Assembly (NCBI GenBank): GCA_029266455.1
Contig: JAQSWV010000047.1
Coordinates: 1-60,315, forward strand
Direction of reading: 5' to 3'
DNA length: 60,315 nt
From: Nocardioidaceae bacterium
GTDB lineage: Bacteria; Actinomycetota; Actinomycetes; Propionibacteriales; Nocardioidaceae
The translations under genes and the position numbers were made by a program. Under the pieces are notes generated by a model that worked only from the letters and a program-made list of their open reading frames with translations, ran no database searches and was not told where the DNA came from. Of the stretch, positions 43,206 to 51,669 are shown piece after piece (position 1 is the stretch's first letter; each line of letters starts with the position of its first letter).

Positions 43206-43586
43206 ATGTTTGCGGTCGCCATGATGGCGCTGCTCGCAACTTCCCACGTCATACAAGGCATGCTGGTGCTGTTGGACGAGAACTACTTTCACGTGCATCC
43301 GTCCGGGTTGGCCATTTCCGTCGACTTCGCAGCCTGGGGCTGGGCGCACCTGATCCTCAGCCTGATGCTCTGGGGCGTCGGCATGGGGCTGCTCGCCGGA
43401 CGCCGGTGGGCGCGGATCCTGAGCGTCGTGTTGGCCGGAATCAGTGCGTGGGTCAACATGCTGTTCCTCCCAGCGTTCCCGACCTGGTCTGTGCTGACGA
43501 TCCTGCTCGACGTCCTGGTGATCTGGGCGCTCACCGTGAACGGCCCGCAGATGACATCGGACGAGGTGTTGCGGGGTAGGACGTGA
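43206..43586 (+). CDS. DUF7144-type four-segment membrane protein
   Basis: A protein of 126 residues, ATG 43206 with GGGAAGGGTGAG upstream. Four membrane segments and the pattern VIQGMLVLLDENYFHVHPSGLAISVDFAAWGWAHLILSLMLWGVGMGLLAGRRWARILSVVLAGISAWVNMLFLPAFPTWSVL match a small actinobacterial membrane family that I know as DUF7144. Function unknown. A strong hairpin follows at 43619-43650. Confidence 0.75.
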   Translation: MFAVAMMALLATSHVIQGMLVLLDENYFHVHPSGLAISVDFAAWGWAHLILSLMLWGVGMGLLAGRRWARILSVVLAGISAWVNMLFLPAFPTWSVLTILLDVLVIWALTVNGPQMTSDEVLRGRT

Positions 43587-43909
43587 TGACAGGCCGGCTG
43601 GGTCAACGGTTCGCTAAGGGCAGGCCCTGCGCGGCAGGGACGGGCCTGCCGCCGGGCTACCGGCCTGGGCAGGGCCGAGCGCTGCCAGCGGATCATGGCC
43701 GAGGACGTGCTCGTCTCGGAGCAGCGCCACCGAACCGTCCACCATGGGGAGTGCGCGACTGCTGCCGCCTCACCCGTTCTGGGGGAGGCGTCCCGACGAC
43801 CTTCCGCCGTAGCCTAGACCCGCGCGCAGTTCATAGGCGCCTAGTTGACGCCGCAGCACCGAAGCGCGATGGCCGCTGCGGATGTGGAGACGACACCCGA
43901 GGAGCTCCC
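43587..43909. other. Intergenic region upstream of the DUF6325 gene
   Basis: These 323 bases hold the hairpin at 43619-43650 and, at the right end, the GGAG ribosome-binding site of the gene starting at 43910. An open frame runs through the region into that gene, but its residues are arginine/proline-rich and lack any family pattern, so I do not extend the gene. A second smaller hairpin (GCCGGGCTACCGGC) follows the first. Confidence 0.4.
43619..43650 (+). terminator. Strong stem-loop, probable terminator
   Basis: GGCAGGCCC (43619-43627) pairs perfectly with GGGCCTGCC (43642-43650) across a 14-base loop, 32 bases after the DUF7144 stop. There is no T-tract, but GC-rich stems without one often terminate transcription in actinomycetes. 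Confidence 0.5.
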
Positions 43910-44383
43910 ATGGCACACGATGGTGACGAGTTGGGCCCGATCGACTACCTGGTGGTTGAGTTTCCTGGCAGCCGGATGACCGGGAAGGGTCTGCCGATGC
44001 TGGTCGAGCTCGTCGAGAAGGGGATCATCCGGATCCTCGATCTGGTTTTCGTCAAGAAGGACCTTGACGGCACCGTCAGAGGGATGGAGATCGCCGACCT
44101 GGATGGCGACGGCGAACTTGATCTTTCCGTATTCAAGGGAGCTGCCTCCGGGCTGCTCGGCGACGACGACATCGCCGAGGCCGGTGGCGTGCTGGAACCG
44201 GGCAGTTCCGCGGGGATCCTCATCTTCGAGAACGCGTGGGCGGCGCCGTTCGCTTCCGAGCTCCGGCGGGGTGGCGGCCAGCTGGTCGCCCATGGACGGA
44301 TTCCCGTTCAAGCGCTGCTGGCCGCTGTTGACGCTGCGGAGGCAGGGTCCGATCCCATGCCAACAGCCCGCCTCAACGGCTGA
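43910..44383 (+). CDS. DUF6325 family protein
   Basis: A protein of 157 residues from ATG 43910 (GGAG upstream). GPIDYLVVEFPGSRMTGKGLPMLVELVEKGIIRILDLVFVKKDLDGTVRGMEIADLDGDGELDLSVF is the DUF6325/DUF1269-related pattern. Then come GLLGDDDIAEAGGVLEPGSSAGILIFENAWAAPFASELRRGGGQLVAHGRIP and a short helical end. Function is not established; the fold looks like a soluble alpha/beta domain. It is followed 33 bases later by a SHOCT-domain gene, a pairing I have seen repeatedly in actinomycetes, and is likely cotranscribed with it. Confidence 0.8.
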   Translation: MAHDGDELGPIDYLVVEFPGSRMTGKGLPMLVELVEKGIIRILDLVFVKKDLDGTVRGMEIADLDGDGELDLSVFKGAASGLLGDDDIAEAGGVLEPGSSAGILIFENAWAAPFASELRRGGGQLVAHGRIPVQALLAAVDAAEAGSDPMPTARLNG

Positions 44384-44416
44384 CCAACCCAACAGCCTGA
44401 CGAAGGGACCGATACC

Positions 44417-44698
44417 ATGCCTGGACTCCTGCGCGGAGTGGCCCGCGTGGCCGTGGCTTCAGGGACGGCAACTGCTGTCTCCAACCGCGTCTCACGACGC
44501 CAAGCCGGCCGCTGGGCCGAGCAGAACCAGCAGGCCTCCCAGCAGCAGCCCGTCGAGGCTGCCCCACAGCCGTCGGCGCAGGGTGGGGACATGCAGGGCA
44601 AGCTGGACCAGCTCAAGGATCTCGCGCAGCTGAAGGAGCAGGGCGTACTCACCGAGGCGGAGTTCGCCGCGCAGAAGCAGCAGATCCTCGGGTCCTGA
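44417..44698 (+). CDS. SHOCT domain protein
   Basis: A protein of 93 residues, ATG 44417 with GAAGGGA upstream. The N-terminus is basic with a weak hydrophobic stretch (GVARVAVASGTATAVSNRVSRRQAGRW), then a Gln-rich linker. The SHOCT motif is at the end: DQLKDLAQLKEQGVLTEAEFAAQKQQIL. SHOCT is a short oligomerisation domain. The protein probably works with the DUF6325 protein encoded just before it. Confidence 0.85.
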   Translation: MPGLLRGVARVAVASGTATAVSNRVSRRQAGRWAEQNQQASQQQPVEAAPQPSAQGGDMQGKLDQLKDLAQLKEQGVLTEAEFAAQKQQILGS

Positions 44699-44766
44699 GC
44701 CGCCACTTGACCTGGCCGATTTCCGGCGACATCCAGTGCCCGACCTGGACGCGCCAGATCGCCGAC

Positions 44767-45027
44767 CTAGACGAGCGCGTCCGAGTCAGGATCCTCCGCG
44801 GATTCCGGTTCGAGCGGCCACTTGAGCTGGAACTCGATCTCTTCCTCGTCGTGGCCGCGCTCATGCTCGATGGAGAACTGGGCGCGCGCAGGAACCCGGA
44901 TCCGTTCTCCCGCGACCTGGATCCGGAACGGCCTGTCCTGTTCCAAGGCGTCCGCGAGGCGCCGAAGCTTGGCCACGACCTCATGGGTCGAGTACATCCG
45001 TTCCACATCTCGCTCTTCGTGCGCCAT
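44767..45027 (-). CDS. Amphi-Trp domain protein
   Basis: A protein of 86 residues from ATG 45027, chosen because GGAAGGGA lies about nine bases upstream; in-frame upstream residues to 45186 look non-coding. YSTHEVVAKLRRLADALEQDRPFRIQVAGERIRVPARAQFSIEHERGHDEEEIEFQLKW is the complete amphi-Trp domain, ending in the conserved Lys-Trp. The tail is acidic. The domain is small and of unknown function. It converges on the SHOCT gene at 44417. Confidence 0.85.
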   Translation of the reverse strand: MAHEERDVERMYSTHEVVAKLRRLADALEQDRPFRIQVAGERIRVPARAQFSIEHERGHDEEEIEFQLKWPLEPESAEDPDSDALV

Positions 45028-45076
45028 CTGACGCGTCCCTTCCTCGCTGCGTTCAGTTCCATCCGCCATGCGTATG

Positions 45077-45637
45077 TCAGTTGACGCCCACCTGCTGGCA
45101 ACTCTCGGAGCCGGCGAGAGCGTCCTGCAGCTCTGCTGCCCCGTCGAGGCCTTCGATGCCCTCGAGCGTCGTCCGGATGTCCGCACTCATCGTGGACAGT
45201 GCCCCAGTGATGGTCGACGTATCCGCCAGAAGCTCGCTGGCTGTGTCGGCATCTGTGTCCATCGCATCGCTCAGGACATCTGCCTCCGCCTCCAAGTCGT
45301 CGGCCAGGGTCTCGAGCAGCGCTTGAGCGTCCTCGCCGGCCTCGGTATCAGGCGGGCCAAGGTCGGAAACCTCCGTGACGAGGGTGCTGGTTGCGTCCAC
45401 CACATCACCAACCGCGTCCCTGGCCTCATTCACACTCAGGTCCCTGGGATCGCGCAGCGTCGAGCCAGCTTGCGTCACGGCGCTATCCCAGGAGGAGACC
45501 GACGAGCACACGTCGTCCGCCCACGCTTCGGCGCTGGTCTCTTCGCCGCCCTCATCGTCGCTCGAGCCGCAAGCCGCAGCGGATACCGCTACCGCCGCTA
45601 CCACCGCCACAAGGACGGACACCCCAGTCCGCTCCAC
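45077..45637 (-). CDS. Acidic lipoprotein of unknown function
   Basis: A protein of about 186 residues; the GTG at 45637 was chosen because it opens a clean lipoprotein signal: VSVLVAVVAAVAVSAAACGSS, with lipobox Cys23. The rest is acidic and helical, with many Asp/Glu/Ser/Thr residues, a single pair of later cysteines (DDVCSSV and SESCQQV), and heptad-like spacing consistent with a helical bundle. It would be lipid-anchored on the outer face of the membrane. No family recognised. It lies just upstream of the amphi-Trp gene on the same strand. Confidence 0.7.
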   Translation of the reverse strand: MERTGVSVLVAVVAAVAVSAAACGSSDDEGGEETSAEAWADDVCSSVSSWDSAVTQAGSTLRDPRDLSVNEARDAVGDVVDATSTLVTEVSDLGPPDTEAGEDAQALLETLADDLEAEADVLSDAMDTDADTASELLADTSTITGALSTMSADIRTTLEGIEGLDGAAELQDALAGSESCQQVGVN

Positions 45638-45905
45638 CTTGTCCCGCCACCTCTCGTCGTAGAGATCTCGACACCCGCCAAGTCCTCGCGGCCCGCGTAC
45701 CACGCCTCCCTGGGTCTGGTCGCCTTCACGACCTTCCTCATCCCCGTCCGAGTTCCGTCACCACGGGCAGGCTCGACCGGTGGAAGGCACCAGCGGCCGA
45801 CATCCCGACCCCGTTGATCGCCGTGTTCGCCGAGAGTGACCGGCTTGCCGCCCACGCCAAGGCAGCCCAGGGCCGACGTTACTGTGCTCAAGGTGACGAA
45901 TTGGC

Positions 45906-46286
45906 CTAGACGGCCAGGGCCCGGGACTTGAGCGTGGCGAACTCGTCGGCGGTGATCTCGCCGGCGTCTCGGAGCTGCTGGGCCTCGGCGATCTGCGCGG
46001 CTGGAGACGGCTGCCCCGCGACCTGCTGGATGTAGCGGTCCTGCTCGGCCTTGGCGACCTCCATGCGGCGCACGGAGCGTTCCGCCATGCCCTTGCCCCG
46101 CACGATCAGGTAAACCATGGCGCTGAGGAACGGAACAAAAATGAACGCGATAAACCAGAGCGCCTTCACGAAACCACTGGTGTCGCGGTCGCGGAAGAGA
46201 TCTCCGATGAGTGAGAACAACAGCATGAGGTAGGCGACGAGGGCGTACGACAAGATGATGAACCACACGATGTCCCAGAAGGACAT
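45906..46286 (-). CDS. PLDc_N-SHOCT membrane protein, copy 1
   Basis: A protein of 126 residues from ATG 46286 with GAGGAG upstream. Two membrane segments (residues 4-26 and 42-64) flank GDLFRDRDTSGFVKALW, the phospholipase-D N-terminal-like (PLDc_N) pattern. After a charged helix (GMAERSVRRMEVAKAEQDRYIQQVAG) comes a C-terminal SHOCT motif, IAEAQQLRDAGEITADEFATLKSRALA. It is about 81 percent identical by eye to copy 2 at 48456-48836. Differences lie almost only in the membrane segments, and the SHOCT half is nearly unchanged. Function unknown, probably an oligomeric membrane stress protein. Confidence 0.85.
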   Translation of the reverse strand: MSFWDIVWFIILSYALVAYLMLLFSLIGDLFRDRDTSGFVKALWFIAFIFVPFLSAMVYLIVRGKGMAERSVRRMEVAKAEQDRYIQQVAGQPSPAAQIAEAQQLRDAGEITADEFATLKSRALAV

Positions 46287-46309
46287 GGCCACTCCTCGGT
46301 GACGCCCGA

Positions 46310-46398
46310 ACACCGGCCCGGTGTCCGGGAAACTGCCCCACGCGCGCGGGTGTGCGCGGGGATCGAGATGTGCCCAGCCTGTCGCAGCGACGGCTGGG
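46310..46398 (-). promoter_or_regulatory. Structured leader of PLDc_N-SHOCT copy 1
   Basis: Two hairpins can form. The distal one pairs CCCAGCC (46373-46379) with GGCTGGG (46392-46398) and continues with GTCG/CGAC, giving an eleven-pair stem with one bulge, 87-112 bases before the start codon. The proximal one is ACACCGG-C-CCGGTGT (46310-46324), 24-38 bases before the start. Both are kept in copy 2, where the proximal stem has a different centre. Confidence 0.5.
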
Positions 46399-46557
46399 CG
46401 ACCTCACCCACCTGGGATGAGAAGCCGCGGTCAGCCGACCCGGCCACCCAGCAGCGTCACCTTCGCCGGATGAGGAGCCGTACAGGACCGGCGACATGAT
46501 CAACGCCTCGCCTCTCATCGTGAGGCGTTGTCGCCGGATCGTCCTGCGAGTCTGACG

Positions 46558-48411
46558 TCAGTCGTGGGCAAGCCCGCCGGAGTGGCGTAGAGGGTCTTGG
46601 CCCGTGCCGTGATCGAGTCGGTGGTCGAGGTTGAGGGCGGCGTTGATCAGGGACAGGTGAGTGAACGCTTGGGGGAAGTTGCCGAGCTGCTCGCCGGTCA
46701 GCCCGATCTCCTCGGCATAAAGCCCGAGGTGGTTGGCGTAGGTGAACATCTTCTCGAACGTCAGCCGTGCCTGTTCCAGTCGGCCGGAGCGAGCCAGGGC
46801 ATCCACGTACCAGAAGGTGCAGATGGAGAACGTGCCCTCTTCGCCGCGCAGCCCGTCAGGGGACGCGCTGGGGTTGTAGCGGTAGACCAGACTGTCGGAG
46901 ACCAGCTCATCTTCCATGGCCTCGAGCGTGGACAGCCACATGGGGTCTGCCGGGACTGCAAAGCCCGTCAGAGGGAGCATCAGCAACGCTGCATCCAGAA
47001 CGTCGGACTTGTCATGCTGGGTGAAAGCGCCGCGTTCAGTGTTCCAGCCGACGTCCATGATCCAGCCGTAGATGCGGTCACGTTCGGTGATCCAACGGGT
47101 CAGGTCGGCGGGTCTGCCATGCGCTCGCGCGAGACGCACCATGCGATCCAGCGCGACCCAGCACATGAGTCGGCCATACGTGAAGTTCTGCCGGCCGCCG
47201 CGGGTCTCCCAGATGCCCTCGTCGGGCTGGTCCCAGTGCTCGCTCAGCCAGTCCGCGATCTGGCTGAGCTTTGCCCAGCCCGCCTGCCCGACCTGGATCC
47301 CCTGCCGGTCGGCCAGCCATATCGCGTACAGCATCTCGCCGTAGATGTCGAGCTGCAACTGGCCTGAGGCGCCGTTGCCTATCCGCACCGGCGTGGACTG
47401 CAGGTAGCCCTCGAGGTGGTCCAGGCTCTCCTCGTCCAGGTCGGGGGAGCCGTCGATCCGGTACATGATGCGCAGTGGCGGTCCGGATCCCGGATCGGCC
47501 TGGGCTTCCACACGGTCGGCCAGCCAGCGCATGAAGTCGGCGGCCTCTTCGGTGAACCCCAGGCCGAGTAGTGCATGGACCGAGAAGGAGGCGTCGCGGA
47601 TCCACGTGTAGCGGTAGTCCCAGTTGCGCTCACCACCGACCTGCTCGGGGAGTCCGGCAGTCGGGGCCGCCACCAGGGCACCGGTGGGGGCGTACGTCAG
47701 GAGCTTCAGCGTCATGGCTGAGCGATGGACCATCTCCCGCCAACGGCCGCGATAGGTCGAGCCGGCCAGCCACTTCCGCCAGAACACCGCTGTCTCGTCG
47801 AACATCGCCAGGAGTTCAGCCGGCGAGAGATGACGGGGAGTGGTGTCGGCGGCCGCCTCCAGCACCACCCCGTCGACGTCCCCCGCCTCCAGGGTCATCG
47901 TGGCACGCACGTCGTCGCCGTCGCGCTCCAGTCCGGCCGGGCCGTGAAGAGTCAGCTGCAGCTCAGGCGTGCGGAAGACGGCGCCTTCCTCCGTGACCTC
48001 GAGGTCATGGCGCTGTCGGCCGTAGTCGAACCGCGGCGAGCACTCGAGCACGAACCGCATCTGTCCACGCACACAACGCACCGCCCGCACCAGCCGGTGG
48101 CGGTCGCTGGCGTTGCGGGGGTCTTGGATCGGCATGAAGTCGATCACTTCGCCGACGCCGTCCGGGGTCATGAACCGCGTGATCAGAATCGCGGTGTCCG
48201 GGAAGTACAGCTGCTTGACGACGCAGTCGTCGCTGTCGGCCGCGATCCGGAAGCGGCCGCCCTTGTCCCGGTCGAGCAGGGATGCGAACACGCTCGGGGA
48301 ATCGAAACGCGGACAGCAGAACCAGTCCACGGTCCCGTCGGTGCTGACCAACGCCGCGGTCTGCAGGTCTCCGATCAGCCCGTGCTCGGCAACCAACGGG
48401 TAACGGTCCAC
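46558..48411 (-). CDS. Glycoside hydrolase family 15 protein (glucoamylase/trehalase-like)
   Basis: A protein of 617 residues, GTG 48411 with GGAGGATGG upstream. The N-terminal beta-sandwich domain starts YPLVAEHGLIGDLQTAALVSTDGTVDWFCCPRFDSPSVFASLLD. The (alpha/alpha)6 catalytic domain has RNWDYRYTWIRDASFSVHAL (near residue 265), IYGEMLYAIWLADRQG, GIWETRGGRQNFTYGRLMCWVALDR and FSICTFWYVDALARSG. It ends with GLYAEEIG and FPQAFTHLSLINAAL. Glu residues in the last two regions are the expected catalytic pair. Cytoplasmic, no signal peptide. Mycobacterial homologues of this length are trehalases, so trehalose or maltose hydrolysis is plausible. It is flanked on both sides by the duplicated PLDc_N-SHOCT unit. 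Confidence 0.9.
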   Translation of the reverse strand: MDRYPLVAEHGLIGDLQTAALVSTDGTVDWFCCPRFDSPSVFASLLDRDKGGRFRIAADSDDCVVKQLYFPDTAILITRFMTPDGVGEVIDFMPIQDPRNASDRHRLVRAVRCVRGQMRFVLECSPRFDYGRQRHDLEVTEEGAVFRTPELQLTLHGPAGLERDGDDVRATMTLEAGDVDGVVLEAAADTTPRHLSPAELLAMFDETAVFWRKWLAGSTYRGRWREMVHRSAMTLKLLTYAPTGALVAAPTAGLPEQVGGERNWDYRYTWIRDASFSVHALLGLGFTEEAADFMRWLADRVEAQADPGSGPPLRIMYRIDGSPDLDEESLDHLEGYLQSTPVRIGNGASGQLQLDIYGEMLYAIWLADRQGIQVGQAGWAKLSQIADWLSEHWDQPDEGIWETRGGRQNFTYGRLMCWVALDRMVRLARAHGRPADLTRWITERDRIYGWIMDVGWNTERGAFTQHDKSDVLDAALLMLPLTGFAVPADPMWLSTLEAMEDELVSDSLVYRYNPSASPDGLRGEEGTFSICTFWYVDALARSGRLEQARLTFEKMFTYANHLGLYAEEIGLTGEQLGNFPQAFTHLSLINAALNLDHRLDHGTGQDPLRHSGGLAHD

Positions 48412-48455
48412 TGGCCATCCTCCACTAGACGTGCGCTCGGTGGCGACGGGCTGCG

Positions 48456-48836
48456 CTAGACGGCCAGGGCCCGGGACTTGAGCGTGGCGAACTCGTCGGC
48501 GGTGATCTCGCCGGCGTCTCGTAGCCGCTTGGCCTCGGCGATCTGCGCGGCTGGAGACGTCTGCCCCGCGACCTGCTGGATGTAGCGGTCCTGCTCAGCC
48601 TTGGCGGCATCCATGCGGCGCATGGAGCGTTCCGCCATGCCCTTGCCCCGCACTATCACGTACACCAGCGCAGTGACCAACGGGAAGAAGATCAACAAGA
48701 CGTACCAGACCGCCTTCATGAGCCCACTGGTGTCGCGGTCGCGGAAGAGATCGCCGATGATCGAGAACAGCATCATGAGGTAGGCAACGAATGCGTACGA
48801 CAACAGGATGAACCACACGACGTCCCAGAAGGACAT
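48456..48836 (-). CDS. PLDc_N-SHOCT membrane protein, copy 2
   Basis: A protein of 126 residues from ATG 48836, same length and layout as copy 1: two membrane segments around GDLFRDRDTSGLMKAVW, the basic helix GMAERSMRRMDAAKAEQDRYIQQVAG, and the SHOCT end AEAKRLRDAGEITADEFATLKSRALA. The gap to the GH15 start on the same strand is 44 bases, so copy 2 and the GH15 gene could share a transcript starting in the duplicated leader. Function unknown. Confidence 0.85.
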   Translation of the reverse strand: MSFWDVVWFILLSYAFVAYLMMLFSIIGDLFRDRDTSGLMKAVWYVLLIFFPLVTALVYVIVRGKGMAERSMRRMDAAKAEQDRYIQQVAGQTSPAAQIAEAKRLRDAGEITADEFATLKSRALAV

Positions 48837-48860
48837 GGCCACTCCTCAGTGACGCCCCGA

Positions 48861-48948
48861 ACACCGCCCGGTGTCCGGGAAACTGCCCCACGCGCGTGGG
48901 TGTGCGCGGGGATCGAGATGTGCCCAGCCTGTCGCAGCGACGGCTGGG
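48861..48948 (-). promoter_or_regulatory. Structured leader of PLDc_N-SHOCT copy 2
   Basis: The distal hairpin CCCAGCC (48923-48929) with GGCTGGG (48942-48948) and inner GTCG/CGAC is identical to that of copy 1. The proximal palindrome reads ACACCG-CC-CGGTGT (48861-48874): the centre has changed but the symmetry is kept. Preservation in both copies hints at a function in RNA or protein binding. Confidence 0.5.
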
Positions 48949-49100
48949 CGACCTCACCCAGCTGGGATGAGAAGCCGCGGTCAGCCGACCCGGCCACCCA
49001 GCAGCGTCACCTTCGCCGGATGAGGAGTCGTCCAGGACCCGGCGACATGATCAAGGCAGCGGCCCGATGCCGCGGACCGCGTCCTGGAGGGGTTGCCACC

Positions 49101-49475
49101 GTGCTCGTCAGGCTCATGCTACTCACCTGGTTCGTCGCGGCGGTGTCCCTTGGCATCACGGCGTGGATTCTTGACGACGTGACCATCGAGGGCGGCACCC
49201 TTGGGCTGCTATGGGTGGCCGCAATCTTCGGGTTGGTCAACGCCATCGCCGGCCCGGTGCTCCAGCTGCTCAGCCTACCGTTGACCCTCCTCACGTTCGG
49301 GCTCTTCGCCCTCGTGGTCAATGGCATCCTGCTCGCGATCACGGCGGGCTTGACCGACTACCTGGACGTCGGGGGTTTCGCCTGGACTGTTGTTGCCGCT
49401 GTGCTGATCTCCGCGATCACGGCCGCCCTGCAGCTGGTCCTCCTGCGCATTCTCGAGCCGGAACGGGTCACGTAG
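49101..49475 (+). CDS. Phage holin family (superfamily IV) membrane protein
   Basis: A protein of 124 residues from GTG 49101 with GGAGGGG upstream; the frame is open from 48849, but that part lies in the duplicated leader and is not coding. Four membrane segments are evident, with the family pattern LLWVAAIFGLVNAIAGPVLQLLSLPLTLLTFGLFALVVNGILLAITAGL, typical of the small YvlD/holin superfamily IV proteins. Despite the name, these are usually chromosomal membrane proteins with no link to phage. It converges on the DUF1269 gene. Confidence 0.85.
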   Translation: MLVRLMLLTWFVAAVSLGITAWILDDVTIEGGTLGLLWVAAIFGLVNAIAGPVLQLLSLPLTLLTFGLFALVVNGILLAITAGLTDYLDVGGFAWTVVAAVLISAITAALQLVLLRILEPERVT

Positions 49476-49539
49476 GACGCAAGGCCGAGGATTGCCGCCC
49501 GGCCGACTCGCTGGTCGCGGCGCAGAGTAGGAACGACGC

Positions 49540-50028
49540 TCAGGCACCCCCGAATGTCTCCAGGAGCACGGCGCGCTCGGGCTCGGTGAGGTTGGTGTGG
49601 ACCAGCTTCTGGTCGGACCCCCGGAACCGTTCTCCCAGCCGGTCGAGGTTGCCCTCGTCGGTGACCACGAACAGGGCCGAGGTGCCTTCGCCGACCTCGG
49701 TGCGGATGCGAGCCAGGTCGTCCTTGGTGATTCCGGTGCCCTCGGTCGATCTGGCCAGGGCTCCGAGCGCGGCGCCGGCGACGCCGCCGACCACCGGGAT
49801 CATGAAGAGCGCTCCGGCGAGAATGCCCCAGAGCGCGCCCCAGGCGGCGCCGCGTTTCGGGTCGTCGCGCGAGTGATGCAGCTCGGGCTTCGGCGCACCG
49901 GTCGGCCAGGTCAAGATGGCGTGATCCACGATCTTGACCAGGCCGTCGGACTGCGCATTCTCGAGCATCGAGGCAGCGTGCGCCGCCCCCTCCGGGTCCT
50001 CGAACTTCCACACCGTGAAGGTGGTCAT
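49540..50028 (-). CDS. DUF1269 family protein with glycine-zipper segment
   Basis: A protein of 162 residues; ATG 50028 was preferred to ATG 50031 because AGGAGG then lies four to five bases away. The N-terminal half is an alpha/beta domain (TTFTVWKFEDPEGAAHAASMLENAQSDGLVKIVDHAILTWPTG). The centre is a glycine-rich hydrophobic pair (GAAWGALWGILAGALFMIPVVGGVAGAALGAL), and the C-terminal part contains SALFVVTDEGNLDRLGERF. This is the DUF1269 layout, related to DUF6325 proteins such as the one at 43910. Probably membrane-associated. Function unknown. Confidence 0.85.
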   Translation of the reverse strand: MTTFTVWKFEDPEGAAHAASMLENAQSDGLVKIVDHAILTWPTGAPKPELHHSRDDPKRGAAWGALWGILAGALFMIPVVGGVAGAALGALARSTEGTGITKDDLARIRTEVGEGTSALFVVTDEGNLDRLGERFRGSDQKLVHTNLTEPERAVLLETFGGA

Positions 50029-50169
50029 CATTCCTCCTCGTCCTTGATGCGTGAGTCCTCGCCGACGCCACCAGATGTGACACGTCGGGTGTGACCGGCA
50101 GGACCTCCCTTGTGGACAGCCTGTACGGGCGCGTTGAGGGACGCCACCCCGAGGCGGGTGGGTGTTCCG

Positions 50170-51669
50170 TCAGCCGAGGAGCGCTCCCGCCACCAGCGCG
50201 AGAACACTGAGCACCACGAGCATCGCCAGCAGCGGCCACACCCATCTCAGGTAGGTGCCGTAGGGGACCCGAGCGATGGCGAGCCCACCCATGACGACGG
50301 CCGAGGTCGGGATGAAGAGGTTCATGATGCCGGAGGCGCTCTGGAAGGCCGTGACAACGAGCTCCGCCGGGACGCCGGCGAAGTCCGCCAGCGGACTCAT
50401 GATCGGCATGGCGACAGTGGCGAGGCCAGACGATGAAGGAATCAGGAACGACAACGGCAGGAACAGCACGAACATCACGACGGCGAAGCCGGCCTCGCCG
50501 ACGTCCCCGAGCGCTTGCTCAGCCCAGTTCAGGACGGTGTCGGTGATCTCGCCGTTGTTCATGACCACGGTGATGCCGCGCGCGATGCCGATGATGAGTG
50601 CCACACCGAGCAGGTCACGGGCACCGTTGACGAACGAGTCCGTCAGGTCGGTCTCGGACATCCGGCCGATGATGCCGATCACGATGCTGAACAAGATGAA
50701 TAGTGCAGTCATCTCGGGGAACCACCACCACAGCGTGGGAAGACCTATGTTCATGTCCTCCCACGGGATGACCCCGTACATCATCACCAGGAAGGCCGCC
50801 GCAAACACGAGGAGGATCGCCTTCTGACGCCCGGTCATCACCGCGTCCCCGCCGTCGCCCGCCTCGACGCTGAAATGCCGCGCGTTCTCCTCGTGCATCG
50901 CGGCCACCGCCGAGCGGGAAGGGTCGGCCTTGACCCGGTCGGCGTACCGCAAGACGAAGAAGATGCCCAGGGCAAGGGCGACCACGAGCATCACCAGGCG
51001 GAGGACCAGGCCGTCGCTGATCGACACTCCGGCGAACCCCGAGGCGATGCCGGTGGCGAAGGGGTTGATCGTCGAGCCGAATGTGCCGATCCCGCATCCC
51101 AGCAGGACCACTGCGGCGCCGGTGAGAGCGTCGTACCCTGCGGCGATCATCACCGCGATGACGAGCGTGTAGAAGGCCAGGCTCTCCTCCGCCATGCCGT
51201 ACGTGCTGCCGCCGAGCGCGAAGACGATCATCAGGATCGGGATCATCCACCGCTCCCGGCCCTGCAACCGGCTCACAAGGCGTCCGATCCCCGCCTGTAT
51301 CGCGCCCGTTTGCATGGTGACGCCGAGGAACCCACCGATCACGATGATGAACAGGGCGACGTCGATCGCACCGAACAGTGTCCCCGAGTTGTAGTAGTTG
51401 ATGTTCCCCTTGGCGTTCTCGACGCCATAGAGACCGTTGATCGGCGCGGTCAGCGAGTCGACCACGATTTTCGCCGGCTGTGACTCGACCGAGTGGTACG
51501 TGCCGGGGACCGGGCTCCCGTTCTTGTCCACGTCATACGACCCGGCGGGAACGATCCAGGTGGCGAGCGCCATCAGCACGATCAGCGCGAACAAGATCGT
51601 GTACGCCGAGGGGAGGTGGAACCCTCGTCGCGGCGCGACCGGAGCGGTCGTCGTCGTCGGATCAGACAT
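50170..51669 (-). CDS. YfcC-family (arginine/ornithine antiporter-like) transporter
   Basis: A protein of 499 residues, ATG 51669 with GGAGGAG upstream, overlapping the nhaC stop by eight bases. It has about 12-13 membrane segments and the family's hallmark regions: LATWIVPAGSYDVDKNGSPVPGTYHSV near the N-terminus, LIVGGFLGV-like and MQTGAIQAGIGRL, GGSTYGMAEESLAFY, LGCGIGTFGSTINPFATGIASG, and PLSFLIPSSSGLATVAMPIMSPLADF. Relatives carry C4-dicarboxylates or basic amino acids. Being last in an arginine deiminase operon, arginine/ornithine exchange is the natural guess, and that part is inference. Confidence 0.85.
   Translation of the reverse strand: MSDPTTTTAPVAPRRGFHLPSAYTILFALIVLMALATWIVPAGSYDVDKNGSPVPGTYHSVESQPAKIVVDSLTAPINGLYGVENAKGNINYYNSGTLFGAIDVALFIIVIGGFLGVTMQTGAIQAGIGRLVSRLQGRERWMIPILMIVFALGGSTYGMAEESLAFYTLVIAVMIAAGYDALTGAAVVLLGCGIGTFGSTINPFATGIASGFAGVSISDGLVLRLVMLVVALALGIFFVLRYADRVKADPSRSAVAAMHEENARHFSVEAGDGGDAVMTGRQKAILLVFAAAFLVMMYGVIPWEDMNIGLPTLWWWFPEMTALFILFSIVIGIIGRMSETDLTDSFVNGARDLLGVALIIGIARGITVVMNNGEITDTVLNWAEQALGDVGEAGFAVVMFVLFLPLSFLIPSSSGLATVAMPIMSPLADFAGVPAELVVTAFQSASGIMNLFIPTSAVVMGGLAIARVPYGTYLRWVWPLLAMLVVLSVLALVAGALLG

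Follow-up and report, generated by a model that had tools for sequence, protein, structure and literature searches.

A block-wise divergent pair of PLDc_N-SHOCT genes around a GH15 glycosidase gene in a Nocardioidaceae genome

The duplicated stretch and its products

The window (the whole stretch of DNA that was analyzed, 60,315 nucleotides of contig JAQSWV010000047.1 from a Nocardioidaceae bacterium) holds a duplicated small gene whose non-coding leader appeared better conserved than its coding sequence, and the question raised by this locus is what kept the one alike while the other diverged. The copies are direct and on the same strand (45906-46506 and 48456-49057, start-to-start 2550), and the GH15 glycosidase gene that they enclose lies outside the duplicated sequence. 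Same-orientation copies of 600 bases around this gene had been described in the original prediction and were borne out: DNA identity between them was 92% (E 2.4e-246), and the stretch matched at two places only across the assembly (3.43 Mb, 128 contigs). Similarity starts exactly at the stop codon and stops at ~49057; each copy comprises a minus-strand gene for a 126-residue protein and ~220 bases upstream. The coding parts were 89% identical in DNA and 81% in protein, and the leaders were 96.0% identical (6 substitutions and 3 single-base gaps); the figures given earlier (about 96% for the leader, about 81% for the protein) therefore hold. The copies differ at ~50 positions in all, and both reading frames are intact. 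Read from the sequence, an ATG preceded by a GAGGAG site is common to both copies (46286 and 48836) and is likely the true start of both proteins; because this shared ATG sits behind that site, a longer 135-aa reading of copy 1 from a GTG is probably not real. Coordinates are collected in Table 1.

Table 1. Features of the duplicated locus, in positions of the window
Feature	Position	Strand	Basis
Copy 1 CDS, PLDc_N-SHOCT membrane protein, 126 aa	45906..46286	-	Pfam above cut-off; start by GAGGAG site
Copy 1 divergent island, residues 15-62 (= codons 17-64 from upstream GTG)	46101..46244	-	Silent divergence
Copy 1 leader, between GH15 gene and copy 1	46287..46506	-	96% identical to leader 2
GH15 glycosidase, 617 aa, trehalase-like N-terminal domain	46558..48411	-	PF00723 E 1.6e-73, PF19291 E 5.7e-21
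Copy 2 CDS, PLDc_N-SHOCT membrane protein, 126 aa	48456..48836	-	Pfam; nearer orthologues than copy 1
Copy 2 island counterpart	48651..48794	-	aa comparisons with copy 1 and orthologues
Copy 2 leader, between copy 2 and divergent holin_4_2-type gene	48837..49057	-	96% identical to leader 1
Phage_holin_4_2 family membrane protein, divergently read, not duplicated	49101..49475	+	PF04020 E 2.1e-24

In both products the hydrophobic two-helix domain PLDc_N (PF13396) scored above its cut-off of 23.3 bits (27.6 and 27.9), as did a C-terminal SHOCT domain (PF09851; 27.4 and 29.2 bits, cut-off 27). These were the sole domains found in the 126 aa, and the phospholipase D catalytic domain is absent. A structural model of copy 2 (mean pLDDT 84; pTM 0.42, a low value at which the helix layout alone is usable) placed helices at residues 3-32 and 38-90, followed by short SHOCT helices at 95-107 and 113-125. 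The products are most likely small, non-catalytic membrane proteins with two helices and, on the cytoplasmic side, a helical tail that terminates in SHOCT. Given the SHOCT literature (PMC3581485, PMC11237479), a role in membrane or envelope upkeep is plausible on family knowledge. In a comparative study, SHOCT-like domains are suggested to tether activities at the membrane, with a possible link to envelope stress systems (PMC11237479), and oligomerisation was unsupported in an initial test (PMC3581485).

The enclosed GH15 gene carries a TREH_N domain. Its loss through recombination between the repeats, as the original prediction proposed, is possible in principle; no strain with such a deletion was found, and the sole congener examined lacks the whole PLDc_N-SHOCT family. 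In the gap that separates leader 1 from the GH15 stop codon (46507-46557) there is an inverted repeat, AACGCCTC...GAGGCGTT, with no T run; this repeat may mark where the GH15 transcript ends.

Distribution of the differences

Divergence between the copies was concentrated in one block of the gene, codons 17-64, which runs from the last part of helix 1 through the loop into the first part of helix 2 and is referred to here as the island. Counted in 30-base steps, differences clustered at 46116-46175 and 46206-46265, with few elsewhere. Silent changes numbered 14 over 33.8 sites in the island and 2.5 over 58 in the remaining codons (Fisher p 3e-5, from small and rounded counts), and replacement changes 17 over 110 and 8.5 over 182 sites, respectively. 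This corresponds to dS ~0.60 and dN 0.17 inside the island, and to dS 0.04 and dN 0.05 outside it. Third-position differences were also clustered in a permutation scan with a 48-codon window (p 0.002), in which the width of the block alone was fixed, its borders having been picked after the data were seen. Uniform synonymous divergence, the outcome named beforehand as speaking against the original prediction, was accordingly not found. Near-identical tracts instead alternate with tracts of older silent divergence, as in a gene-converted pair.

The leaders were then no exception within the repeat. Their substitutions (6 of 219 sites, 2.7%) were compared with those at coding sites outside the island (11 differences in ~240, or 4-5%), and the two rates did not differ significantly (Fisher p 0.33). 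The contrast lies between the island and all else, and the claim that non-coding sequence is more conserved than coding sequence falls away, because the impression arose from averaging the divergent island into the coding figure. As the leader is about as diverged as the remaining coding sites, a constraint on it is not needed; nor can leader constraint, or selection on the protein alone, explain the island, because its silent sites have diverged too. Positive selection is likewise unneeded, since dN/dS within the island was ~0.29.

Orthologues and the origin of the island

For comparison, 98 orthologous proteins were gathered, some of them from named actinobacteria and the others from genomes of the family; matches in common with named records (Nocardioides, Aeromicrobium, Mumia) put the window in or near the Nocardioidaceae. 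Across the island, aa identity between the copies was 67%, while copy 2 shared 77% with Nocardioides ungokensis and the best foreign identity of copy 1 was 69-70%, to a gene from another genus. Third-position identity in the island was 0.69 between the copies, equal to that between copy 2 and a gene of genus g7 (L059, 0.69). In the C-terminal part the relation was reversed: the copies were 90-91% aa-identical, and the best foreign match reached 63%. Over 4,753 pairs of orthologues, the island was on average the better conserved portion (64% vs 53% for the C-terminal part), and none showed a reversed contrast as large as that of the window pair; in the 15 pairs with C-terminal identity of at least 88%, the islands were all at least 91.7% identical. 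The C-terminal tract tree joined the copies with support of 96. The island tree placed them apart, on 48 columns with little resolution, and an AU test left their sister grouping unrejected (p 0.78). Duplication, block-wise silent and replacement divergence and the conflict with orthologue distances are direct observations, and the last is the pattern that recombination between, or into, the duplicates would leave.

We consider it probable that the genes are an old duplicate pair, in which gene conversion made the leader, the gene start and the 3' part alike and passed over the island. Old duplicates, each with its own leader, would have stood on both sides of the GH15 gene, and homologous recombination between the direct repeats would, fairly recently, have copied sequence across. 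Conversion would have covered two tracts, one made up of the leader and the first codons and the other of the gene's 3' half; a central stretch of ~144 bases would have escaped and retained the older divergence. Gene conversion had been offered in the original prediction as an explanation of the leader; it stands as the mechanism, and not as something specific to the leader, since the coding sequence outside the island diverges equally little. Homogenised flanks, as opposed to a replaced island, are our inference, and so is the direction of copying; both genes would be expressed from equivalent leaders. An old pair leads one to expect relatives with two copies around GH15, and the absence of any among 342 family genomes counts against old age.

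The main rival, which we regard as appreciably less probable, is a recent duplication after which copy 1 took up a new central block by recombination with a foreign homologue. It would account for flanks and leader that are uniformly young (3-5% divergence), and the absence of the pair from other genomes of the family is what a recent duplication predicts. The island was closer to the orthologues in copy 2 than in copy 1 in 83 of 98 comparisons, so that copy 1 either changed faster or derives from a more distant source, and third-position GC in the island was somewhat lower in copy 1 (0.79 vs 0.88). Against such an import, no close donor was recovered, with aa identities to the copy 1 island peaking at 66-70% among 342 family and 392 order genomes, and a mid-gene swap of ~144 bases with so distant a partner requires short identical ends. 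Plasmid relatives were considered as donors and all fell under 60%; no third PLDc_N-SHOCT gene that might have donated the block is present in the assembly.

A functional split is also conceivable, although we rate it as unlikely: the leader and cytoplasmic tail would evolve in concert while selection protected a helix segment with a copy-specific partner or lipid, which would make the genes a co-regulated pair with divided roles around GH15. Still more doubtful is a simple recent duplication in which the helices of copy 1 changed fast under relaxed or diversifying selection, perhaps for a new partner. The replacements are in keeping with it, being mostly conservative hydrophobic swaps inside the helices with the inter-helix loop GDLFRDRDTSG identical in both copies, but silent divergence in the island is at the between-genera level and dN/dS is low; this account is largely refuted, because protein selection alone would not raise dS.

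Special constraint on the leader, or selection keeping the two leaders alike, was one reading in the original prediction and is now very improbable. Besides the 96% identity, predicted folding can be cited for it: leader 2 (-126.4 kcal/mol, z -4.2) was more stable than shuffled sequences, and leader 1 less markedly so (z about -2.6). The coding sites outside the island are nevertheless as alike as the leader, and the leader had no recognisable counterpart in the relatives searched; in a DNA search of 58 of them the coding stretch was matched and otherwise only short scattered matches were returned. Structure in the upstream regions of 76 orthologues exceeded that in control stretches only slightly (mean z -0.75 vs -0.37), so a structured upstream region is at best a weak family trait. 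Neither the gathering nor the relaxed thresholds of Rfam brought up a family, chance-level matches apart, and the leader was therefore not recognised as a known structured RNA or riboswitch. Beyond the two leaders no further full copy was found in the genome, and sigma-70 promoters and terminators did not exceed chance. A strong hairpin, GCCCAGCCTGTCGCAGCGACGGCTGGGC, is invariant across both leaders (46372-46399 and 48922-48949). Finally, an assembly artefact, with one copy a mis-joined or collapsed variant, might be suspected of a draft in 128 contigs but is scarcely credible for copies in different unique contexts 2.5 kb apart, with intact frames and ~50 differing positions.

Neighbourhood and known systems

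A search of 342 family genomes turned up no second case of a PLDc_N-SHOCT pair flanking GH15. In one family genome (G240) two homologues are separated by 11 kb, and in one genome (L095) a distant SHOCT homologue is followed by GH15. A SHOCT homologue and GH15 occur within ~4-7 kb of each other in three other genomes; mostly the two are unlinked. In a further genome (G318; L098, 6480-8838), homologues of the window's GH15 and DUF1269 proteins (61% each) are encoded directly adjacent, in the orientation of the window and with nothing between them. Since no SHOCT gene intervenes there, the paired arrangement is lineage-specific.

The region 43206-50031 is a cluster of genes for small proteins of unknown function, of membrane or stress type (DUF7144, DUF6325, SHOCT, Amphi-Trp, PLDc_N-SHOCT, holin_4_2 and DUF1269). 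Some of the neighbours in the window are also found close to orthologues in several genera, most often the DUF6325 gene and a gene for a 93-aa SHOCT protein; in Nocardia, Rhodococcus, Kribbella, Agromyces and Blastococcus these two lie no more than 6 kb from PLDc_N-SHOCT genes. The DUF1269 gene adjoins a DcuC-type carrier gene (50170-51669), and an 84% identical homologue of the carrier stands beside a DUF1269 homologue in two other genomes (G164 and G250); carrier and DUF1269 are a conserved pair.

The GH15 protein agrees in domain order and length with NCBIfam TreH1 and with GH15 trehalase-like glycosidases (PF00723/PF19291), but scored 404 bits against the TreH1 model, below its cut-off of 820, so that its substrate is not settled by this likeness.

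The PLDc_N-SHOCT family is already known and widespread in actinobacteria; 80 small members, of at most 173 aa and with no catalytic domain, were described with the SHOCT domain (PMC3581485). The window proteins share with these the same two domains, the small size and the absence of a catalytic PLD domain. The protein itself is unremarkable, and what is unusual is that it is encoded by a block-wise divergent pair placed around GH15. The pair might aid study of this widespread, uncharacterised family of membrane proteins, of which current understanding is unchanged.

The process proposed is an ordinary evolutionary one in a known family. Duplicated genes of actinobacteria are known to undergo gene conversion, as documented for the PPE genes of Mycobacterium tuberculosis (PMC12046097), and the locus offers a small, clear case in which patchy conversion can mimic greater conservation of non-coding than of coding sequence with no regulatory constraint. 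As in the PE/PPE genes (PMC12046097), homologous copies would have swapped tracts to give mosaic identity; here the gene family is another, and the process is read from one genome and from orthologue distances rather than from a comparison of strains.
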